Shown in pieces: positions 1 to 7,015 of a stretch of 7,015 nt of DNA. Location of the stretch: the NCBI GenBank assembly GCA_016188625.1, contig JACPHL010000207.1:1-7015 (forward strand), written 5' to 3'. Below the pieces are notes generated by a model. The model did no database searches, had not been told where the DNA came from, and saw only the letters and a program-made list of their open reading frames with translations. Origin of the DNA: Candidatus Rokuibacteriota bacterium. Lineage in GTDB: Bacteria; Methylomirabilota; Methylomirabilia; Rokubacteriales; JACPHL01. Position 1 is the stretch's first letter; each line of letters opens with the position of its first letter. A program made the position numbers and the translations under genes.

Positions 1-376
1 CCCCCTGCTGCCCGGTGAAGAAGACCGTCACGGTCACGCTGGTGCACGCGGTGCAGGGGCAGGGGGTGCAGGCAGTGGGCGGAGAGTAGCTCCCGCCGGG
101 GTTGTAGGTCGCCACGGCCACCTGGCGGGTGAAGCCGGGGTAGCCCGAGACGGCCGCCGCGCTCCCCCCGGTGTCCAGGGTGGAGAGGGTGCCGTAGGGG
201 GTGCGCTTGGCCTGCTCGACCACCTCCAGGGCCAGGCCGGTGGCGACCGTCTGCAGCCCCCCGCCGGTGACCCCGTACATCGAGAGCGGGAAGGAGGCGG
301 CCAGCCCGATCAGGGCGATGGCCAGGAGCAGCATGGCGACCATCAGCTCGACCAGGGTGACCCCGCGCTCGCCCAT
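1..376 (-). CDS. PilV-like type IV minor pilin, N-terminal part (3' end beyond window)
   Basis: The visible 125 residues begin MGERG followed by VTLVE, a class III prepilin leader: a five-residue basic leader, Gly at -1, a hydrophobic +1 residue and Glu at +5. A hydrophobic helix follows (about residues 6-28, LMVAMLLLAIALIGLAA). This is what a prepilin peptidase cleaves and N-methylates, and the stretch resembles PilV-type minor pilins, which help initiate and tip the pilus. The start ATG (376-374) has a GGGGAGGAG Shine-Dalgarno about 6 bases upstream and lies 20 bases after the stop of the pseudopilin gene, so the two are probably co-transcribed from the sigma-54 promoter. Residues 103-111 hold an unusual Cys-x2-Cys-x-Cys-x2-Cys cluster. 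The C-terminal part is missing because the window ends. PilV is inferred from the N-terminal pattern and gene order; another minor pilin class is possible. Confidence 0.85.
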   Translation of the reverse strand, partial: MGERGVTLVELMVAMLLLAIALIGLAASFPLSMYGVTGGGLQTVATGLALEVVEQAKRTPYGTLSTLDTGGSAAAVSGYPGFTRQVAVATYNPGGSYSPPTACTPCPCTACTSVTVTVFFTGQQG

Positions 377-396
377 CGCGCGACTCCTCCCCGTCC

Positions 397-843
397 TCAG
401 CACGGCGGGCTCGCCAGCTGGACCCCCCCGGCCGCGGTCACGGTCAGGATCACCGAGCAGGCCGATGGGTCCGTGATGTTGATGGTGACCGTCCCGGCCG
501 TGGTGGTGCCGATCGGGTTGAAGGTGAAGGTCTGGCTCGCGTCGGAGACCGTCGCGCCCTGAGAGAGGGTCACCGGCCCCTCGACCGAGGTCCCGCCGCA
601 GGAGGTCTCCCAGATCTGGTACTGGTTGTTGGCGGGAAAGCTGATGCAGTGGTTCACCGCCCGGGTGATGGCGAGCTGGCGGGTCTGCCGGATCGCCATC
701 GCCATCTCCTCGCTCGCCCCCTTGGTCTTCGTCACCGCGAGGATGTTCCCCATGGTGGGGAGGAAGGCGACGGCGAGGATCGCCAGGATGACCAGGATGA
801 TGCTGACCTCGACCATGGTCAGGCCGGCCTCGCTCCTGCGCAT
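397..843 (-). CDS. FimT/GspH-type minor pseudopilin
   Basis: A 148-residue protein with a seven-residue leader MRRSEAG, processing after Gly7, and mature N-terminus LTMVE with Glu at +5. A hydrophobic helix of about 22 residues follows, then a Thr/Val-rich beta domain. The C-terminal pattern (FTFNPIG, then a VTINIT strand, then a TAAGGVQL end) fits the GspH/FimT family of minor pilins, which prime type IV pilus or type II secretion pseudopilus assembly in the inner membrane. Cysteines at 66, 82, 129 and 148 could form two disulphides. The longest open frame starts at 933, but those extra residues fall inside the leader RNA. I chose ATG 843 because the prepilin leader begins there. GTG 849 is a rival, as the AGGGAG Shine-Dalgarno (861-856) is 12 bases from ATG 843 and 6 from GTG 849. 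It is the first gene after the riboswitch and sigma-54 promoter. Confidence 0.88.
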   Translation of the reverse strand: MRRSEAGLTMVEVSIILVILAILAVAFLPTMGNILAVTKTKGASEEMAMAIRQTRQLAITRAVNHCISFPANNQYQIWETSCGGTSVEGPVTLSQGATVSDASQTFTFNPIGTTTAGTVTINITDPSACSVILTVTAAGGVQLASPPC

Positions 844-854
844 CGTCACCACAC

Positions 855-910
855 CCTCCCTAGCCCTCGATCCGGGGGCGCGGCACGGGTCGGGCGCGAG
901 GCTGGGGAGG
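855..910 (-). promoter_or_regulatory. Shine-Dalgarno-sequestering hairpin in pilin mRNA leader
   Basis: Inverted repeat in the RNA of the minus strand. The 5' arm (910-897) carries CCUCCC, AGCC and UCG; the 3' arm (869-855) carries CGA, GGCU and GGGAGG. This gives 13 base pairs with one mismatch and one bulged G, closing a 27-base loop. The 3' arm contains the Shine-Dalgarno of the pseudopilin gene, so the hairpin should block ribosome binding. It lies downstream of the c-di-GMP aptamer and is the likely translational output of the switch. The pairing is seen in the sequence; the regulatory role is inferred. Confidence 0.6.
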
Positions 911-919
911 CCGGGGGTG

Positions 920-943
920 GGGGGAAACCGCAAGGTCGCCCCC
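920..943 (-). promoter_or_regulatory. Alternative hairpin overlapping riboswitch P1 (expression platform)
   Basis: In the minus-strand RNA, GGGGG (943-939) pairs with CCCCC (924-920). A small inner stem ACC/GGU closes a UUGC loop, with a 2x2 internal loop between the stems. The GGGGG arm is shared with the 3' strand of the aptamer's closing helix P1 (947-940), so the two structures exclude each other. No run of U follows, so it is not a standard intrinsic terminator. It more likely acts as the ligand-free alternative fold. Confidence 0.5.
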
Positions 944-1029
944 TCTCTTCGGCAGCCCGGCCGTCAGCTCCGCTGACCCGTGACTTTGCGCCGCCGCGTC
1001 GCCGCGGGTTCGCCCTTGTCGGAAAGGGG
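940..1029 (-). promoter_or_regulatory. Cyclic di-GMP-I (GEMM-I) riboswitch aptamer
   Basis: The minus-strand RNA matches the GEMM-I/c-di-GMP-I consensus along its length. P1 is 1029-1022 paired with 947-940 (eight pairs, one G-U). The GGGCGAACC core is at 1015-1007. P2 is CCGCG/CGCGG capped by a GCGA (GNRA) tetraloop. The hallmark GGCGCAAAG is at 992-984. P3 is GUCAGC/GCUGAC (977-972 with 968-963) with a GG bulge that could be the tetraloop receptor, and the 3' end is GGGCUGCCGAAG. By alignment to the Vibrio cholerae Vc2 aptamer, the base stacked between the ligand's guanines is A987. The base contacting one guanine (Vc2 G20) is G1014, and the C pairing with the other lies in GCC (953-951). 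G rather than A at the G20 position favours c-di-GMP over cGAMP, though this is not absolute for the family. It lies in the leader of a pilin operon, a common place for the class. Confidence 0.92.
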
Positions 1030-1102
1030 CCCTGGACGTCTCGATCGGCCATCACTCTGCTCCTCCCCCCGGGCCGCTGTCAAGGGAAATCACGCTGTTC
1101 CG

Positions 1103-1118
1103 AGCAAAAAATATGCCA
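1103..1118 (-). promoter_or_regulatory. Sigma-54 (-24/-12) promoter of the minor-pilin operon
   Basis: The minus strand reads TGGCATATTTTTTGCT. Against the consensus TGGCAC-N5-TTGCW it differs only by T for C at the sixth base, with the exact spacing of ten bases between the GG and GC pairs. Transcription should start near 1092, about 60 bases before the aptamer. Sigma-54 promoters with PilS/PilR-type control are well known for pilin genes. The A/T-rich spacer stands out in this G+C-rich DNA. Confidence 0.85.
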
Positions 1119-1162
1119 GTCACCGGCCGCGCGGTTAGGGTGGATGTCTCCTTACACTGTGC

Positions 1163-1179
1163 GAAGCCGTGGAGGCTTC
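1163..1179 (-). repeat. Short perfect inverted repeat between activator region and promoter
   Basis: GAAGCC and GGCTTC (1163-1168 and 1174-1179) flank a 5-base spacer. It could form a hairpin at the end of read-through from the diguanylate cyclase gene, or be a protein site between the activator region and the sigma-54 promoter. No U tract follows on the minus strand, so a terminator call is not supported. Confidence 0.35.
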
Positions 1180-1214
1180 CAGGGGTGCTCGACCCGGCGC
1201 GGATCACGGCCCGC

Positions 1215-1251
1215 TTGACAATTCTCGCCCCCGCACTGACAGAATTTGTCA
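1215..1251 (-). promoter_or_regulatory. Candidate enhancer-binding-protein site (TGTCA repeats)
   Basis: On the minus strand, TGACA-N5-TGTCA (1251-1237) is a perfect inverted repeat. A further TGTCA (1220-1216) follows in direct orientation exactly 21 bases from the previous TGTCA, two helical turns. The block sits about 125-160 bases upstream of the predicted start near 1092, a usual distance for sigma-54 activators. TGTC-containing half-sites have been described for PilR, but the activator here is not identified. Confidence 0.5.
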
Positions 1252-1269
1252 CCCTTCGGACCTCGGGCC

Positions 1270-1284
1270 GCTCCCGGCAGGAGC
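1270..1284 (-). terminator. Weak terminator-like hairpin after the diguanylate cyclase gene
   Basis: GCUCC and GGAGC (1284-1280 and 1274-1270) form a 5-bp stem with a UGCCG loop starting right after the stop codon of the GGDEF gene. No U tract follows, so it may be only an mRNA 3' end structure, or mean nothing. Confidence 0.25.
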
Positions 1285-2340
1285 TCACGCCTCGACCTTC
1301 CGGGCGAAGGCCGTGACCCGGTTCTTCCCGCCCTGCTTGGACTGGTAGAGGGCCGCGTCGGCGGCCCTGAAGATCTCCTCGTGGGTCTTCGCGTCCTCGG
1401 GGAAGGCCGCCAGGCCGACGCTCACCGTGACGGGGGTGCCGTTATCTGGGGCCTTGATGGAGGCGGCGACCCCACGCCGGAGCCGCTCCGCGAAGAGGGT
1501 GGCGTCGTACTTCGTGGTCTCGGGGAGGATCACGGCGAACTCCTCGCCGCCCACCCGGCACGGGACGTCGCCCTCCCGGGAGACCGAGCGGAGCAGGCGC
1601 CCGAGCTGCTGCAGGACGGCGTCCCCCTGCTGGTGCCCGTAGCGGTCGTTGTAGAACTTGAAGCTGTCGATGTCCACGATCATCAGGCTGAAGGTGTGGC
1701 CGAAGCGCGAGGACCGGTTCAGCTCCTCCCGGAGCCGTATGTCGAAGTGGCGCCGGTTCCCCACCTCGGTCAGCTCGTCGGTGAGGGACATCTCCCGGAG
1801 CCGGACGTTGGCGCTCCGGAGCTCCTCGTTGATGCCCTCGAACCGGGAGCCGTACTCCTGGACCTGGGCGGCCTGCTGCTGGAGCGTGGCGAGGACCTTC
1901 CCGAAATCCCGCATGAGGGCCCCGACCTCGTCCGCGCGGCCCACGGCGAAGAGGGCCTCCAGGCCCTCCGGGAGGGCCGGCCCGGCCTGGGCGTTCTGGC
2001 CCACCGGGGCGGGACCCTCGGCCCGCGCGACCCCGGTGAGGGACTCGGAGGCGTGCCGGGCCACGGAGACGACGCCCTTGATGATGTCCAGGCAGATGTA
2101 GAGCCCGATCGCCTCGAGGACCGTCAGGACGAACACCACCGTCAGGAAGAAGCCCCGCCCCTTGGGGTAGATGATCTGATGCGTCACCTCCGGGATGAGG
2201 AGGGGGAGGCCGAGGTAGACGACGAAGAGCAGGGGCAGAAGCCCGGCGATGGCGAAGCCCAGGAAGAACTTCGCCCGGATCCCCTGCCCCCGCAGGGCGA
2301 CCTCGGGACCGACCCCTTTGACGGCGTCTCGCGGGCTCAT
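1285..2340 (-). CDS. Membrane-anchored GGDEF diguanylate cyclase
   Basis: A 351-residue protein that should make c-di-GMP from two GTP. Two hydrophobic segments (about residues 24-50 and 63-89) anchor it in the inner membrane. A linker and a probable coiled coil (about 143-187) lead to the GGDEF domain (about 187-347). The active-site motif is GGEEF at 264-268, preceded by the metal-binding DID at 223-225 and by NDRYGHQQGD. The allosteric inhibition site RxxD (REGD, 255-258) is intact, so product feedback is expected. The upstream open frame continues into the peptidase gene in another frame, so I chose ATG 2340, whose ATGA overlaps the pilD stop. There is no strong Shine-Dalgarno, which suggests translational coupling. 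It is the last gene of the set, just upstream of the c-di-GMP-regulated pilin promoter. No sensory domain other than the membrane region is recognisable. Confidence 0.93.
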   Translation of the reverse strand: MSPRDAVKGVGPEVALRGQGIRAKFFLGFAIAGLLPLLFVVYLGLPLLIPEVTHQIIYPKGRGFFLTVVFVLTVLEAIGLYICLDIIKGVVSVARHASESLTGVARAEGPAPVGQNAQAGPALPEGLEALFAVGRADEVGALMRDFGKVLATLQQQAAQVQEYGSRFEGINEELRSANVRLREMSLTDELTEVGNRRHFDIRLREELNRSSRFGHTFSLMIVDIDSFKFYNDRYGHQQGDAVLQQLGRLLRSVSREGDVPCRVGGEEFAVILPETTKYDATLFAERLRRGVAASIKAPDNGTPVTVSVGLAAFPEDAKTHEEIFRAADAALYQSKQGGKNRVTAFARKVEA

Positions 2341-3110
2341 CCCAGGTACCAGGCCAGGAGCGGCTCGCCCCCGAGGGCCGCCACGAGCCCGCCCAGGGCG
2401 AGGAACGGGCCGAAGGGCACGGGGTCCTTCCGCCCCTTCCGCCCGAGGAGTAACAGCAGCACCCCGGTTACCCCGCCCGCCAGGACCCCCGCGAAGATCG
2501 CCACCAGCACGAGCTGCCACCCCAGGAAGGCCCCGAGCATCGCGGCCAGCTTGACGTCGCCCCCGCCCATCCCCCCGCGGCTCGCCAGGGCGATGAGGTA
2601 GAAGATCCCGCCGGCCAGGAGGCAGCCGAGGAGCCCCCCGAGCAGCCCGCGGATCGAGGGGTAGAGCTGCATCGCCAGCCCCACCACGATCCCCGGGAGG
2701 GTGATCCGGTCGGGGATCAGGAGGGTCTCGAGATCGATGAAGGTCACCGCGATCAGGACGAGGCCGAGGAGGAACGCCCGCAGCCCCTCCCAGGTCGGCC
2801 CGAGCTGCCAGAGGACGAGCAGCCCGAGCCCCACGGCCAGGGCCTCGACCAGGGGGTACCGCCACGAGATCGGCCCCCGGCAGGCCCGGCAGCGGCCGCG
2901 GAGGACGGCGAAGGAGACGAGGGGGATGTTGTCGTAGAAGCGGATCGCCGCGCCGCAGCCCGGGCAGTGGGAGGGCGGCGAGACGACGCTCTCCCCGCGC
3001 GGCAGGCGCGAGGTGCAGACGTTCAGGAAGCTGCCGAGCGCCGCGGCCAGGGCGATGGCCAGCGGCCAGGCCACCACCGGGGAGAGCCCGCCGGGATACA
3101 CCGCCGTCAC
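2337..3110 (-). CDS. pilD: Type IV prepilin peptidase / N-methyltransferase
   Basis: A 257-residue polytopic inner-membrane aspartyl protease that cleaves prepilin leaders and N-methylates the new N-terminus. The N-terminal cytoplasmic domain carries the two zinc-type Cys pairs CPGC (49/52) and CRAC (74/77). The catalytic aspartates are D126 in FIDLETLLIPD and D185 in GGGDVKL, the usual TFPP/PilD signature. About seven further hydrophobic segments follow or alternate with these motifs, and the length is normal for the family. The start is GTG 3110, which overlaps the TGA of the preceding gene (GTGA); GGAGG at 3122-3118 lies 7 bases upstream. Its substrates surely include the prepilins encoded on both sides, all with G|xTxVE-type sites. 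Its overlap with a diguanylate cyclase gene ties pilin maturation to c-di-GMP enzymes in one transcript. The symbol gspO/pilD is interchangeable here. Confidence 0.95.
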   Translation of the reverse strand: MTAVYPGGLSPVVAWPLAIALAAALGSFLNVCTSRLPRGESVVSPPSHCPGCGAAIRFYDNIPLVSFAVLRGRCRACRGPISWRYPLVEALAVGLGLLVLWQLGPTWEGLRAFLLGLVLIAVTFIDLETLLIPDRITLPGIVVGLAMQLYPSIRGLLGGLLGCLLAGGIFYLIALASRGGMGGGDVKLAAMLGAFLGWQLVLVAIFAGVLAGGVTGVLLLLLGRKGRKDPVPFGPFLALGGLVAALGGEPLLAWYLG

Positions 3111-3403
3111 TCCGCCCCCTCCTCGGTCCGGGCCCGGGCGAGGTCGGCCAGGAGCTGCCGCCAGCGCCCTCGCTCCCGGACCGCCGCGAACCCCTCCGCC
3201 CCGAGCAATCGCTCCACATCCTCGCGGGAGACGCCGGTCTCGGCCTCGCCCACCGTCAGGATGAGGCGGTCGAGGACCGGGTAGCGGTCGAACACCCGGA
3301 TCGCGGCCGCCAGGGCGAGCGCCCTCGGCTCGACCGCCAGCTGGCGCGCGGTCACCCAGAGGTCCCGGCCCTGGAGGGTGACGGCCTCGATCGCGCTGCT
3401 CAC
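3107..3403 (-). CDS. Small unknown protein between HD-GYP and pilD
   Basis: A 98-residue protein that I do not recognise. It begins MSSAIEAVTLQGRDLW, looks alpha/beta with a predicted strand (LDRLILTVGE, about 44-53), and ends in a charged helical tail. The segment GVSREDVERLLG (about 57-68) could be a helix that packs or binds a partner. There is no signal peptide or membrane segment, so it is probably cytoplasmic. It starts at GTG 3403 inside the HD-GYP stop (GTGA) with a good GGAGG (3415-3411) 7 bases upstream, and its own stop overlaps the pilD start. Overlaps on both sides, the Shine-Dalgarno and normal codon use make it a real gene, likely working with its neighbours. Confidence 0.75.
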   Translation of the reverse strand: MSSAIEAVTLQGRDLWVTARQLAVEPRALALAAAIRVFDRYPVLDRLILTVGEAETGVSREDVERLLGAEGFAAVRERGRWRQLLADLARARTEEGAE

Positions 3404-4569
3404 GCCGACGCCTCCAGGGGCGCCTCGGCCCGGAGGGTGCGCACCATCCGCTCGACCACGGCCACGAGGCGCGGATCGAAGGCCTTCCCGGCCTCGTCGC
3501 GGAGATAGCCGCAGACGGCCTCAGCCGGGAGCGCCTTCTTGTACGCCCGGCGCGAGGTCATGGCGTCGAAGACGTCGGCGAGGCAGGCCAGGCGGCTGAC
3601 CGGGTGCTGGAGCCAGTCCCCGCGGACGAAGGGGTAGCCCTTGCCGTCGAACCGCATGTGGTGCTCGAAGGCCACGATCATCGGGAGCCGGTTCGCCCCG
3701 GGCATGCGGCTCAGGAGGTCGGCCCCCAGGATCGGGTGTCGCCGCATCGCCCGCCACTCACCCTCGTCGAGGAGGTCGGGCTTGCGGATGACCTCCAGGG
3801 GCACGGCGATCTTGCCCAGGTCGTGGAGCATGCCGCCCATCCCCACCTCCCGCAGGGAGTCCTGCGGGAGCCCCAGCAGGGCGCCGAGGCCGATGGAGAT
3901 CACGGCGACGTTCACGGAGTGGTAGAGCGTGTACTCGTCGTAGGACTTGATGCTCGCCAGGCGCAGCACGAGGCCCGGGGTGGCGAGGATCTGCTCCAGC
4001 AGGGTCGAGGTGAGGGTCCGGAGCGTGGTGAACTGCTCCATGGTCAACGGCTCGCGGTTGCGGATGCTCGCCTCGATCTCGCGCAGCGCCTCGATGGAGC
4101 CGTAGTAGGCGCGGCGCGCCACGACCTCGCCGCTCTCCCGCTGGGGCTCCACCGGGGAACCCAGGGCCACGTGGGCGAGGCGCCTCCGGGCCAGCCAGCC
4201 CGCGGGGTCTGGCCCGATCCCCCCCGTGAAGGCGTCGAACACGCCGTCGATCTCCCGCTCCTCCAGCCCCGGCTGGAAGGTGACGGTGCCGATCCCGCGC
4301 TCGGTCTGACAGACGTCGAGGAACTGGCGGTAGACCAGGCTCTCCCGCGGGAGGATGCGATCGTTGGCGATGAGCAGGTCCCCGAGGAAGCGGTAGGTGA
4401 GCTTCCCGTGGGCGTCCAGGAAGGTCGCGAGCGCCCGGTAGAGGACCTCCTTGGCCCTCCGCGTCTGCGGGTGGTTGGCCTGGTAAAGGCCGGCCGTGCG
4501 CACCAGGCCGGTCAGGTGCGTGAAGATGAGCCGCATCTGCTCCACGGAGGTCACGGCGCTATCCGTCAT
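3400..4569 (-). CDS. HD-GYP domain c-di-GMP phosphodiesterase
   Basis: The C-terminal half (about residues 200-380) is an HD-GYP domain that hydrolyses c-di-GMP. It has YHSVNVA (metal His), the HD pair in MLHDLGK, HHMRFDGKGYP (the HH and GxGYP signature) and LADVFDAMTS; all expected metal and signature residues are present. The N-terminal half (about 10-120) has no standard receiver domain and instead resembles the N-terminus of the neighbouring HEAT protein. ATG 4575 gives 391 residues, but GAGGG (4580-4576) abuts that codon and lies 6 bases from ATG 4569. I therefore chose 4569 (389 residues, starting MTDSAV). The start overlaps the end of the HEAT gene, and the stop overlaps the next GTG. 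No membrane segment is seen. It opposes the diguanylate cyclase encoded three genes downstream. Confidence 0.94.
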   Translation of the reverse strand: MTDSAVTSVEQMRLIFTHLTGLVRTAGLYQANHPQTRRAKEVLYRALATFLDAHGKLTYRFLGDLLIANDRILPRESLVYRQFLDVCQTERGIGTVTFQPGLEEREIDGVFDAFTGGIGPDPAGWLARRRLAHVALGSPVEPQRESGEVVARRAYYGSIEALREIEASIRNREPLTMEQFTTLRTLTSTLLEQILATPGLVLRLASIKSYDEYTLYHSVNVAVISIGLGALLGLPQDSLREVGMGGMLHDLGKIAVPLEVIRKPDLLDEGEWRAMRRHPILGADLLSRMPGANRLPMIVAFEHHMRFDGKGYPFVRGDWLQHPVSRLACLADVFDAMTSRRAYKKALPAEAVCGYLRDEAGKAFDPRLVAVVERMVRTLRAEAPLEASA

Positions 4570-6594
4570 CGCCATCCCTCATGGCGCCGGCCATGGCGTG
4601 CCGCGAGGCGCGGAGGGCCTCGGCCGCCATGTCGCGGATGCGCTTCTCGACCCGATTCCAGAACCAGACGCGGCGGCTGGCCAGCTCGGAGAGCGCCCTG
4701 CGCGCCTCCGGCGTCCCGATCGCTGCCAGGGCGTTGATCGCCTCGTGTCTGATCGCCAGGTCGTCCGGGGCCCCGAGCCCCGGCCGGGTGACCAGGCCGT
4801 GCAAGGCCGCCACCGCCTCCTCGTCCTGGAGGGCGCCCAGCGCCCGCACGGCCGCGCCGCGTACCGTGGGGTCAGGGTCGTCGAGGCACCGGATGAGGGG
4901 CGTGACGGCCATGCGCCCGCCGATCACGCCGAGGGCGCGGACGGCCTCCAGCCGGACCCGGGGGTGGGGATGGTCGAGGACGTTGACCACCGACAGGAAG
5001 GTCGATTCGTCGCCGATCTTGCCGAGGATGCTGACCACGTTCCGCACCACGTACCAGCGCGACTCCGTGAGGCGGGGCAGCAGGGCCGGGACGACCGACG
5101 GGCCCACCGTCGCCAGCACCTGGCACAGCCGGGCGCGCACGCGCCGGTCGCCCTCCTCCGCGAGGACCGCCGAGAACTCGTCCGCCCCCTCCCGCCCGAC
5201 GGCCCGGAGGTACTCCGCGGCCAGGGCCATCTGCTGGGTCTCGGTGCGCCGACGGAGGATGCCCGCCACGAGCTCATCTGCTGGGTCTCGGCCCGCCGGC
5301 GGAGGATGCCCGCCACGAGCGAGACGTGGGTGCGGCCGGCCATCCGCCGCATGAAGAGGGCGTAGCGCCGCGGGTGGTCCCGCATCCAGCCCGTCCCGAG
5401 CTGGGTGGTGGTGGACAGGTTCTTCAGCACGTTCACGGCCAGGTCGAGCCGGCCGCGCGCGAGGGCCTCGCCCATGATCTCCTCGAGGGCGTCCACGGCG
5501 AAGGCGGGGTACTCGTCGCCGTCCACCCGGAAGATCAGGGCCAGCAGGATGTCCGCGCTCCGCTCGAGGAGGACGTCGGGGTGGCACGCGGCCAGGATCT
5601 CCTTGCGGAGCTCCACGAAGAGGGGGTCGTCGTGGGCCAGCTCCTCGGCCGGGCCGGGCGCGAGCCCCGGCTGCTGCCGCCGCTCGAGGGCCGCGGTGAC
5701 GGCCTCCAGCAGCCGCTGGCGCTTGCCCGCCTCCACCGGGAACTCGAGGAGCTCGCCGGTGAGCGACATGAACAGGTCGGCGGGCACGAGCTTGGCGATC
5801 CTGCCCATCTCGTCCTCGGTCGCCTGCGCCAGGAGGTTGAACGCGACCACGTCGCTCGCCGCGAGCGGGACGAGCCAGTTGGTCAGGAACGGCCGCAGGA
5901 TCGCGGCCGGGAGGTTCAGCACGGCCTCCGTCACCGTGCGGAGGCGGACATCCCGATCGCCCGCCCCGCCGGCCATCGTCCCGAGCAACTGCACCGCCGG
6001 GTAGAGGACGTCCACGCGGCCGTCGTCGGTGAGCGAGTGGAACCAGCCCAGGAGCCGATCCCGATCGTAGGAGAGCGCGCCGAAGTGCTCCTCGGTCCGC
6101 TCCAGGATCGCGTGGACGAGCCTGTCCAGCTCGTCCTCCTCCGGCCGGGCCTCCTCGGCCTCGACCCCCGCCCCTCCGGTCGGCTCGCGGACGGTGATGT
6201 GGACGACCTTCCGCCGCCCGAGGAGGGCGGAGGCCCCGGCCACCGAGTCGAAGCTCTCGGCGGGCTGGTTGAGGAGGTCGAGGAAGGCCTCCAGCTCCCA
6301 GTCCTCCACCGAGGGGTCGATGGAGAACTCGACGATGCCGCGGGCCTCGAGGTCGAACCGAAACGCCTCGAGGGTCGCCTCGAGCATCAGGACCTCCTCC
6401 CCGGCCCAGTGGAAGCGGTCCTTCCCCACCCGGATCGGGAAGGTCATCCCCTCCTGGAAGAAGCCGTCGAGGGATCGGTGGAGCCGCCGGACCCAGGCCG
6501 TGGCCATCTCGCTGCCGGGCGGGTAGAGGCTGAGGGACTTCTTGGCCGCGATCAGGGCCTTCAAGAAGAGGACCAGGATCTGCTGATTGCCCAT
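4559..6594 (-). CDS. HEAT-repeat protein, frame broken by a 47-bp tandem duplication
   Basis: Read from ATG 6594, the protein begins MGNQQILVLFLKALIAAKK. Its first 110 residues match the pattern of the HD-GYP protein's N-terminus (LYPPG, then FF-x2-G, AGEEVL, RGIVEF). A long helical middle follows to residue 440 (AETQQM). There the frame shifts inside a tandem duplication (5228-5321), and the shifted frame stops at 4924 (556 residues). The true continuation, from ALAAEYLRAVG to the TAG at 4559, lies in another frame and holds 4-5 HEAT repeats (units around WYVVRNVVSILGKIGD, PRVRLEAVRALGVIG, PTVRGAAVRALGAL, AIRHEAINALAAIG). Removing one 47-bp copy gives exactly 1,989 bases, a 662-residue protein. 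HEAT repeats are protein-binding scaffolds, so a role with the HD-GYP enzyme is likely but unproven. Both halves stay open with no decay, which argues against an old pseudogene. The Shine-Dalgarno before 6594 is weak. Confidence 0.85.
5228..5321 (-). repeat. 47-bp imperfect tandem duplication causing a frameshift
   Basis: Copies at 5228-5274 and 5275-5321 are adjacent and identical at 43 of 47 positions. Each encodes LVAGILRRR-x-ETQQM in its own frame (x is Thr or Ala), and two of the three internal codon differences are silent. Because 47 is not a multiple of three, the second copy shifts the HEAT gene out of frame. Confidence 0.95.
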
Positions 6595-6840: not shown

Positions 6841-7015
6841 CTAGCACAGGTCGGCATCGTTGACCGCCAGGGTGATCCTGCCGTTGGTGGCGTCGTAGGT
6901 GTAGTCGCCGCTGGGACACTGGAAGATCGGGGGGCTCGGATTGACCAGGCCGTTGAGGAGGCCCTTGCCGGGCGGGAAGTTCCCGTCGTGCTTGCCGTAG
7001 TAGATGGCGGCGGCC
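6841..7015 (-). CDS. C-terminal tail of a type IV pilin or pseudopilin (5' end beyond window)
   Basis: The last 57 codons of a gene entering from the right, ending with TAG at 6843-6841. The peptide contains AAIYYGKHDGNFPP, matching the region after the long N-terminal helix in PilA/GspG-type pilins where an alpha helix meets a G-x-FP turn. It then has a beta-rich end with cysteines at visible positions 33 and 57, which could form the D-region disulphide loop typical of type IVa pilins. The prepilin leader and hydrophobic helix are outside the window, so major pilin versus pseudopilin cannot be settled. Its likely maturation enzyme is the PilD encoded about 3.7 kb downstream. Confidence 0.78.
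   Translation of the reverse strand, partial: AAAIYYGKHDGNFPPGKGLLNGLVNPSPPIFQCPSGDYTYDATNGRITLAVNDADLC

Follow-up and report, generated by a model that had tools for sequence, protein, structure and literature searches.

The locus described here raises the question of whether a type IV pilus locus may carry its own c-di-GMP enzymes and, at the same time, have its minor-pilin operon governed by a c-di-GMP-I riboswitch. Judging from the sequence features recognised, we regard the chances of such an arrangement operating here as about even. If the wiring is real, the production, removal, sensing and output of c-di-GMP would lie together within about 4 kb as a small network, providing a convenient natural case for the local action of c-di-GMP enzymes on a neighbouring target, and the minor pilins of an uncultured lineage would join the type IV pilus genes known to be under riboswitch control.

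Organisation of the locus

The window, by which we mean the whole stretch of DNA analysed, is an entire contig of 7015 bp from a fragmented assembly (2.6 Mb, 84% complete). Its relatives place it among uncultured genomes of one taxonomic order, and on GC content, gene content and the shape of the class we judge it to be Rokubacteria-like. The genes of interest are all encoded on the (-) strand, as are all features given below, and read 5' to 3' on that strand they specify a pilin C-terminus, a HEAT-repeat protein, an HD-GYP protein, a 98-aa protein, PilD and a GGEEF diguanylate cyclase (DGC), which are followed by a gap, the aptamer, FimT and PilV. Overlaps of 4 nt are seen at three junctions, namely HD-GYP/98-aa, 98-aa/PilD and PilD/DGC. 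A preliminary description of this DNA had placed the enzymes, the aptamer and the pilin output within about 4 kb, with HD-GYP and GGDEF genes around pilD in overlapping genes. Both statements were borne out by the positions of genes, domains and motifs, the 98-aa gene lying between HD-GYP and pilD, and its remark that each component comes from a known family also holds, as all the parts are familiar in kind.

The aptamer and the FimT/PilV minor pilins form a unit that is separate from, and downstream of, the enzyme operon. The gap of 261 bp between the DGC gene and the aptamer contains one weak terminator-like site, a candidate intrinsic terminator for the end of the enzyme operon (1108..1127; GCCGGTGACTGGC then T6), although about one such site is expected by chance in the window. 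A candidate -35 element of the minor-pilin unit (TTGACA, 1082..1087) was picked out by eye, is absent from the promoter-scan output and is likewise weak. A chimeric contig was also considered and is disfavoured, as the stop/start overlaps and a common 98-aa gene link the two halves and the right half is repeated in a genome of another family (G003).

PilD and the pilins

PilD (2337..3110) shows both A24 domains in Pfam (A24_N 8e-32, Peptidase_A24 1e-20), and the two catalytic aspartates, in IDLETLLIPD and GGGDVKL, as well as the paired cysteines can be read from its sequence. The FimT/GspH-type minor pilin (397..843; GspH E 4e-7) carries the prepilin signal AG/LTMVE and has an orthologue in G003 positioned after the DGC. 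It is followed by a PilV-like minor pilin (2..403; N_methyl E 5e-6), cut by the contig end, which shares 49% identity with the G003 gene that follows fimT. At the other end of the contig, a similarly truncated gene (6841..7014; frame AAAIYYGKHDGNFPPG...NDADLC and stop) encodes a type IV pilin C-terminus, which shares 53% identity over 57 aa (E 5e-14) with a G003 pilin located about 9 kb upstream of pilD.

Predicted enzymes of c-di-GMP metabolism and their neighbours

The active-site motifs of both enzymes had been described as intact, and alignments with solved structures confirm this. The membrane-anchored diguanylate cyclase (1285..2340; GGDEF E 3e-45), aligned with solved GGDEF domains including that of WspR, was found to keep the GGEEF motif, the Asn and Asp that contact guanine and the inhibitory RxxD site. 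Hypr GGDEF enzymes, which make cGAMP, have Ser at a signature position (PMC6456294). The window's cyclase has Asp at this position, with GGEEF, and not Ser or Thr with GGDE(F/Y), and by this rule its product is predicted to be c-di-GMP rather than cGAMP. The cyclase beside pilD in G003 (L177 9989-10957) keeps GGEEF and has Asn (GN) in place of the canonical Asp (GD) at the base-recognition site, so that its choice of substrate may differ from the canonical one.

The HD-GYP protein (3400..4569, alternative start 4575; HD_5 E 1e-18) is a putative c-di-GMP phosphodiesterase, and its Met at 4569 is kept across the orthologue alignment. Compared with 4mcw, the HD pair, the HH pair, the mid-chain His, the late Asp and GYP are all kept, whereas the Glu found in 4mcw four residues ahead of the first His is missing. 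The orthologues vary: in those of the f2 genomes the Gly that follows Asp in DGxGYP is missing, and the window's protein is the most canonical copy among the six aligned. The G003 orthologue (L176 9091-10293), which lies apart from pilD, lacks two ligand histidines, one of them the second of the HH motif, and is probably inactive.

Ahead of the HD-GYP gene lies the gene for the HEAT-repeat protein (4559..6594; HEAT_2 E 3e-30), whose reading frame is interrupted at 5228-5320 by a near-duplication: a stretch of 46 bp recurs at a spacing of 47 bp with 93% identity and splits the gene into two frames. Since the orthologues, found immediately ahead of the HD-GYP gene, are unbroken single ORFs of about 680 aa, the repeat must stem either from a fault of assembly or from a duplication of recent date. 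The 98-aa protein (3107..3403) has no Pfam match, yet it is conserved, with homologues in relatives; it gave a confident small alpha/beta model (pLDDT 83), which found no match in the PDB at E<=0.001.

The aptamer and its leader

As had been claimed, the minor-pilin unit bears a c-di-GMP-I (GEMM-I) riboswitch aptamer (948..1024; RF01051, 53.7 bits, E 1e-8), which is the only RF01051 match in the 2.6-Mb assembly. It has diverged somewhat, nearly all relatives scoring between 61 and 83 bits, and this raises the alternative of a decaying aptamer, or of one with another ligand (for instance cGAMP), and of a fimT-pilV leader over which c-di-GMP has no control. In comparison with 23 aptamers of the same taxonomic order, the outer P2 pair at the base of the helix is broken by a C.C mismatch and the J1/2 A, invariant in those relatives, is G in the window, both of which speak for this alternative. 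On the other side, the score is well over the curated cut-off of 35 bits, and the fold can be traced through 19 of the 20 pairs checked, P2, P3 and the short two-pair helix all being present. One P2 pair is preserved by a double compensatory change (C-G to G-C), another pair altered from C-G to U-G still forms, and the J1/2 change itself occurs in a relative scoring 71 bits (L237).

The pocket bases are G, A (J2/3) and C (J1/3) at columns 11, 38 and 79 of the aptamer alignment, which we take to be G20, A47 and C92 of Vc2. Presumably the A14 contact of GEMM-Ib, the position of the G20A mutant and the G20 site are one and the same. The G20 site is a selectivity factor (PMC9262584), and a cGAMP-selective aptamer has A in the J1/2 contact (A14; PMC6274999). 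The A that would mark a GEMM-Ib (cGAMP) aptamer in place of G20 was not found; the window's aptamer has G, which points to specificity for c-di-GMP rather than cGAMP. With this base, and with Asp and GGEEF in the neighbouring cyclase, cGAMP sensing was set aside, and sensing of c-di-GMP by this aptamer is likely.

A terminator or an anti-ribosome-site switch was sought in the leader by terminator scan and folding, and neither was found: no intrinsic terminator follows the aptamer and no T-run terminator occurs in the fimT leader, while in the folding model the exposure of the ribosome site did not shift between locked and free aptamer (0.38 vs 0.40). The leader was not more stable than shuffled sequences (z -0.75). 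This want of a recognisable expression platform again suits the alternative of a decaying or differently specific aptamer, which, with G at the site of selectivity and no Hypr-type GGDEF among the two GGDEF proteins of the assembly, we nevertheless consider quite unlikely. Under the preferred reading of a c-di-GMP-responsive leader, the missing intrinsic terminator makes control of fimT-pilV at translation or through Rho most likely.

Conservation of the arrangement among relatives

The order HEAT/HD-GYP/small protein/pilD/GGDEF/riboswitch/FimT had been put forward as one to look for in related genomes. The complete arrangement was absent from all other genomes searched, and the part that could be recovered, in G003 only and without the riboswitch, is 98-aa-PilD-DGC-FimT-PilV. 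In this genome pilins come first and these five genes later, as in the window, with a DGC-fimT spacing of about 35 bp and no aptamer between. Although pilD often adjoins fimT-like pilins in the taxonomic order, among 70 pilD loci of the class (window included; some cut by contig ends) a GGDEF gene is adjacent to pilD only in the window and G003, and an HD-GYP gene only in the window. Because of the latter, conservation lends no support to a specific coupling.

HEAT/HD-GYP is a conserved pair in six relatives. It lies on a different contig from pilD in five of them (G003, G001, G011, G015 and G052) and stands apart in the sixth (G040), where pilD was not found. Homologues of the 98-aa protein follow HD-GYP in five f2 genomes and stand ahead of pilD in G003, so the gene belongs to both halves of the window's arrangement, a hint that the joined order could be the ancestral one. 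Two histories are the simplest: either the genes were joined in the ancestor and each family has since broken the order in its own way, or a fusion took place in the lineage of the window. The trio HEAT/HD-GYP/98-aa is itself conserved in the taxonomic order, without pilD (L174 8233-9712, L171 8453-9930, L172 8343-9807).

No c-di-GMP-I aptamer was detected by cmscan in 27 pilD loci from relatives, nor on the contig of the pilD match in 39 relatives. Conversely, with the window as positive control, none of the 64 aptamer loci of relatives had GGDEF, HD-GYP or pilD in the flanks examined, which for 35 of them covered the downstream side only and were in some cases short. Most of these aptamers stand ahead of genes for secreted proteins or regulators; two (L009, L027) lie in front of PilA-like pilins, a placement that speaks for the proposed circuit.

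Such observations are what one would expect of a neighbourhood without private wiring, in which c-di-GMP genes and riboswitch were gathered independently, each answers to the whole-cell pool and proximity confers no special coupling: the order is not conserved, HEAT/HD-GYP being apart from pilD in relatives and G003 being without the riboswitch, and GEMM-I aptamers of relatives stand before many unrelated genes. Against it, the sole riboswitch of the assembly lies 261 bp from one of its two GGDEF genes, for which the rough chance is about 0.3% (a post hoc estimate), and the two halves share the 98-aa gene. We therefore treat independent gathering as a serious alternative, though one that falls short of being probable. 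The scan of a genome collection with the cyclase returned generic GGDEF domains only, without pilD, FimT or the 98-aa protein in their flanks, and no description of a locus with this arrangement was found in the literature searched. On present evidence, with one genome of the window's own family in the set compared, the arrangement appears to be lineage-specific, an unusual combination of familiar parts.

Some features of the taxonomic order were noted alongside. Up to eight c-di-GMP-I riboswitches occur per genome, and one secreted family (motif GILDASWTAPTTNxDGSPLTDLASYRVYY) follows many of them (L003, L010, L014, L024, L229, L237, L239, L243, L251). In many genomes a different cyclase, about 320 aa long, is encoded at a distance of about 0.6 kb from an HD-GYP gene, the two forming a recurrent writer-eraser pair (G012:C116, G017:C193, G032:C181, G056:C45 and others).

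Comparison with known systems

The window's aptamer resembles RF01051 GEMM-I riboswitches in its fold, pocket bases and location in the leader of a surface-structure operon, and differs from them in the broken P2 pair, the changed J1/2 base, the lack of a recognisable platform and the adjacent DGC gene. In Geobacter, GEMM-Ib riboswitches precede pilus (pilMNOP) and cytochrome genes and sense cGAMP made by the Hypr GGDEF enzyme GacA (PMC6456294). Here too a cyclic-dinucleotide riboswitch is found at type IV pilus genes; however, the selectivity site of the window's aptamer is occupied by G, and the cyclase encoded beside it is a canonical GGEEF enzyme. Similarly, a c-di-GMP-II riboswitch of C. 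difficile controls a type IV pilin operon (PMC11477304), which is again a c-di-GMP riboswitch at a pilus operon, although the aptamer there is of class II and the operon is the main pilus operon, whereas the window combines class I with minor pilins. The pilD-fimT loci of the same taxonomic order share with the window pilD beside minor pilins and pilins upstream, but they are without a DGC (except in G003), without HD-GYP and, in those scanned, without a riboswitch.

The proposed circuit and the c-di-GMP network of the genome

Minor pilins prime pilus assembly in known systems. In the circuit that we propose, the membrane GGEEF cyclase would synthesise c-di-GMP and the HD-GYP protein would hydrolyse it, with inputs perhaps arriving via the N-terminal domain of the latter, its HEAT partner or the 98-aa protein. 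The fimT-pilV leader would read the pool and set the amount of these priming pilins, while PilD, the pilin-processing enzyme, would be made together with the c-di-GMP enzymes. The sequence itself shows the parts, their intact motifs, the gene overlaps and the fold and pocket bases of the aptamer, whereas we infer the enzyme activities, ligand binding, on/off direction and wiring. The local feedback suggested by the preliminary description did not stand up, as the riboswitch is downstream of and outside the enzyme operon. In the available sequence, which ends inside pilV, no gene for c-di-GMP synthesis or breakdown lies under the riboswitch, and the circuit is accordingly drawn as feed-forward. 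Closed feedback was rejected on these anatomical grounds, the sole visible feedback element being the RxxD inhibitory site of the DGC.

The recovered genome has two GGDEF proteins, four HD-GYP-like matches and one GEMM-I aptamer, and no EAL protein was found in the assembly. The second GGDEF protein has an AGDEF motif. With only two GGDEF proteins recovered, the local enzymes would probably be a main contributor to the c-di-GMP pool. To call the circuit self-contained was too strong, since that second GGDEF protein and other HD-GYPs are encoded elsewhere in the genome. Nevertheless, because the locus holds one of the two GGDEF proteins, one of the four HD-GYP-like matches and the sole GEMM-I aptamer of a genome in which no EAL was found, a functional link between local enzymes and riboswitch is plausible, and it is unlikely that co-location in so small a network is pure accident. 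A complete dedicated module of membrane cyclase, HD-GYP phosphodiesterase and riboswitch within one pilus locus, in which c-di-GMP under local control would set minor-pilin output and so pilus number, possibly in an ancestral order since broken up in relatives, goes further and seems to us improbable. The best reading is that of a compact, lineage-specific c-di-GMP input to the type IV pilus. Possible other readers of c-di-GMP in the assembly comprise two PilZ and four MshEN matches, and at another locus of the same genome (L260 4683-5654 and 6107 onward) an HD-GYP response regulator stands beside MshEN-domain and PilT-like ATPases and a PilZ protein.
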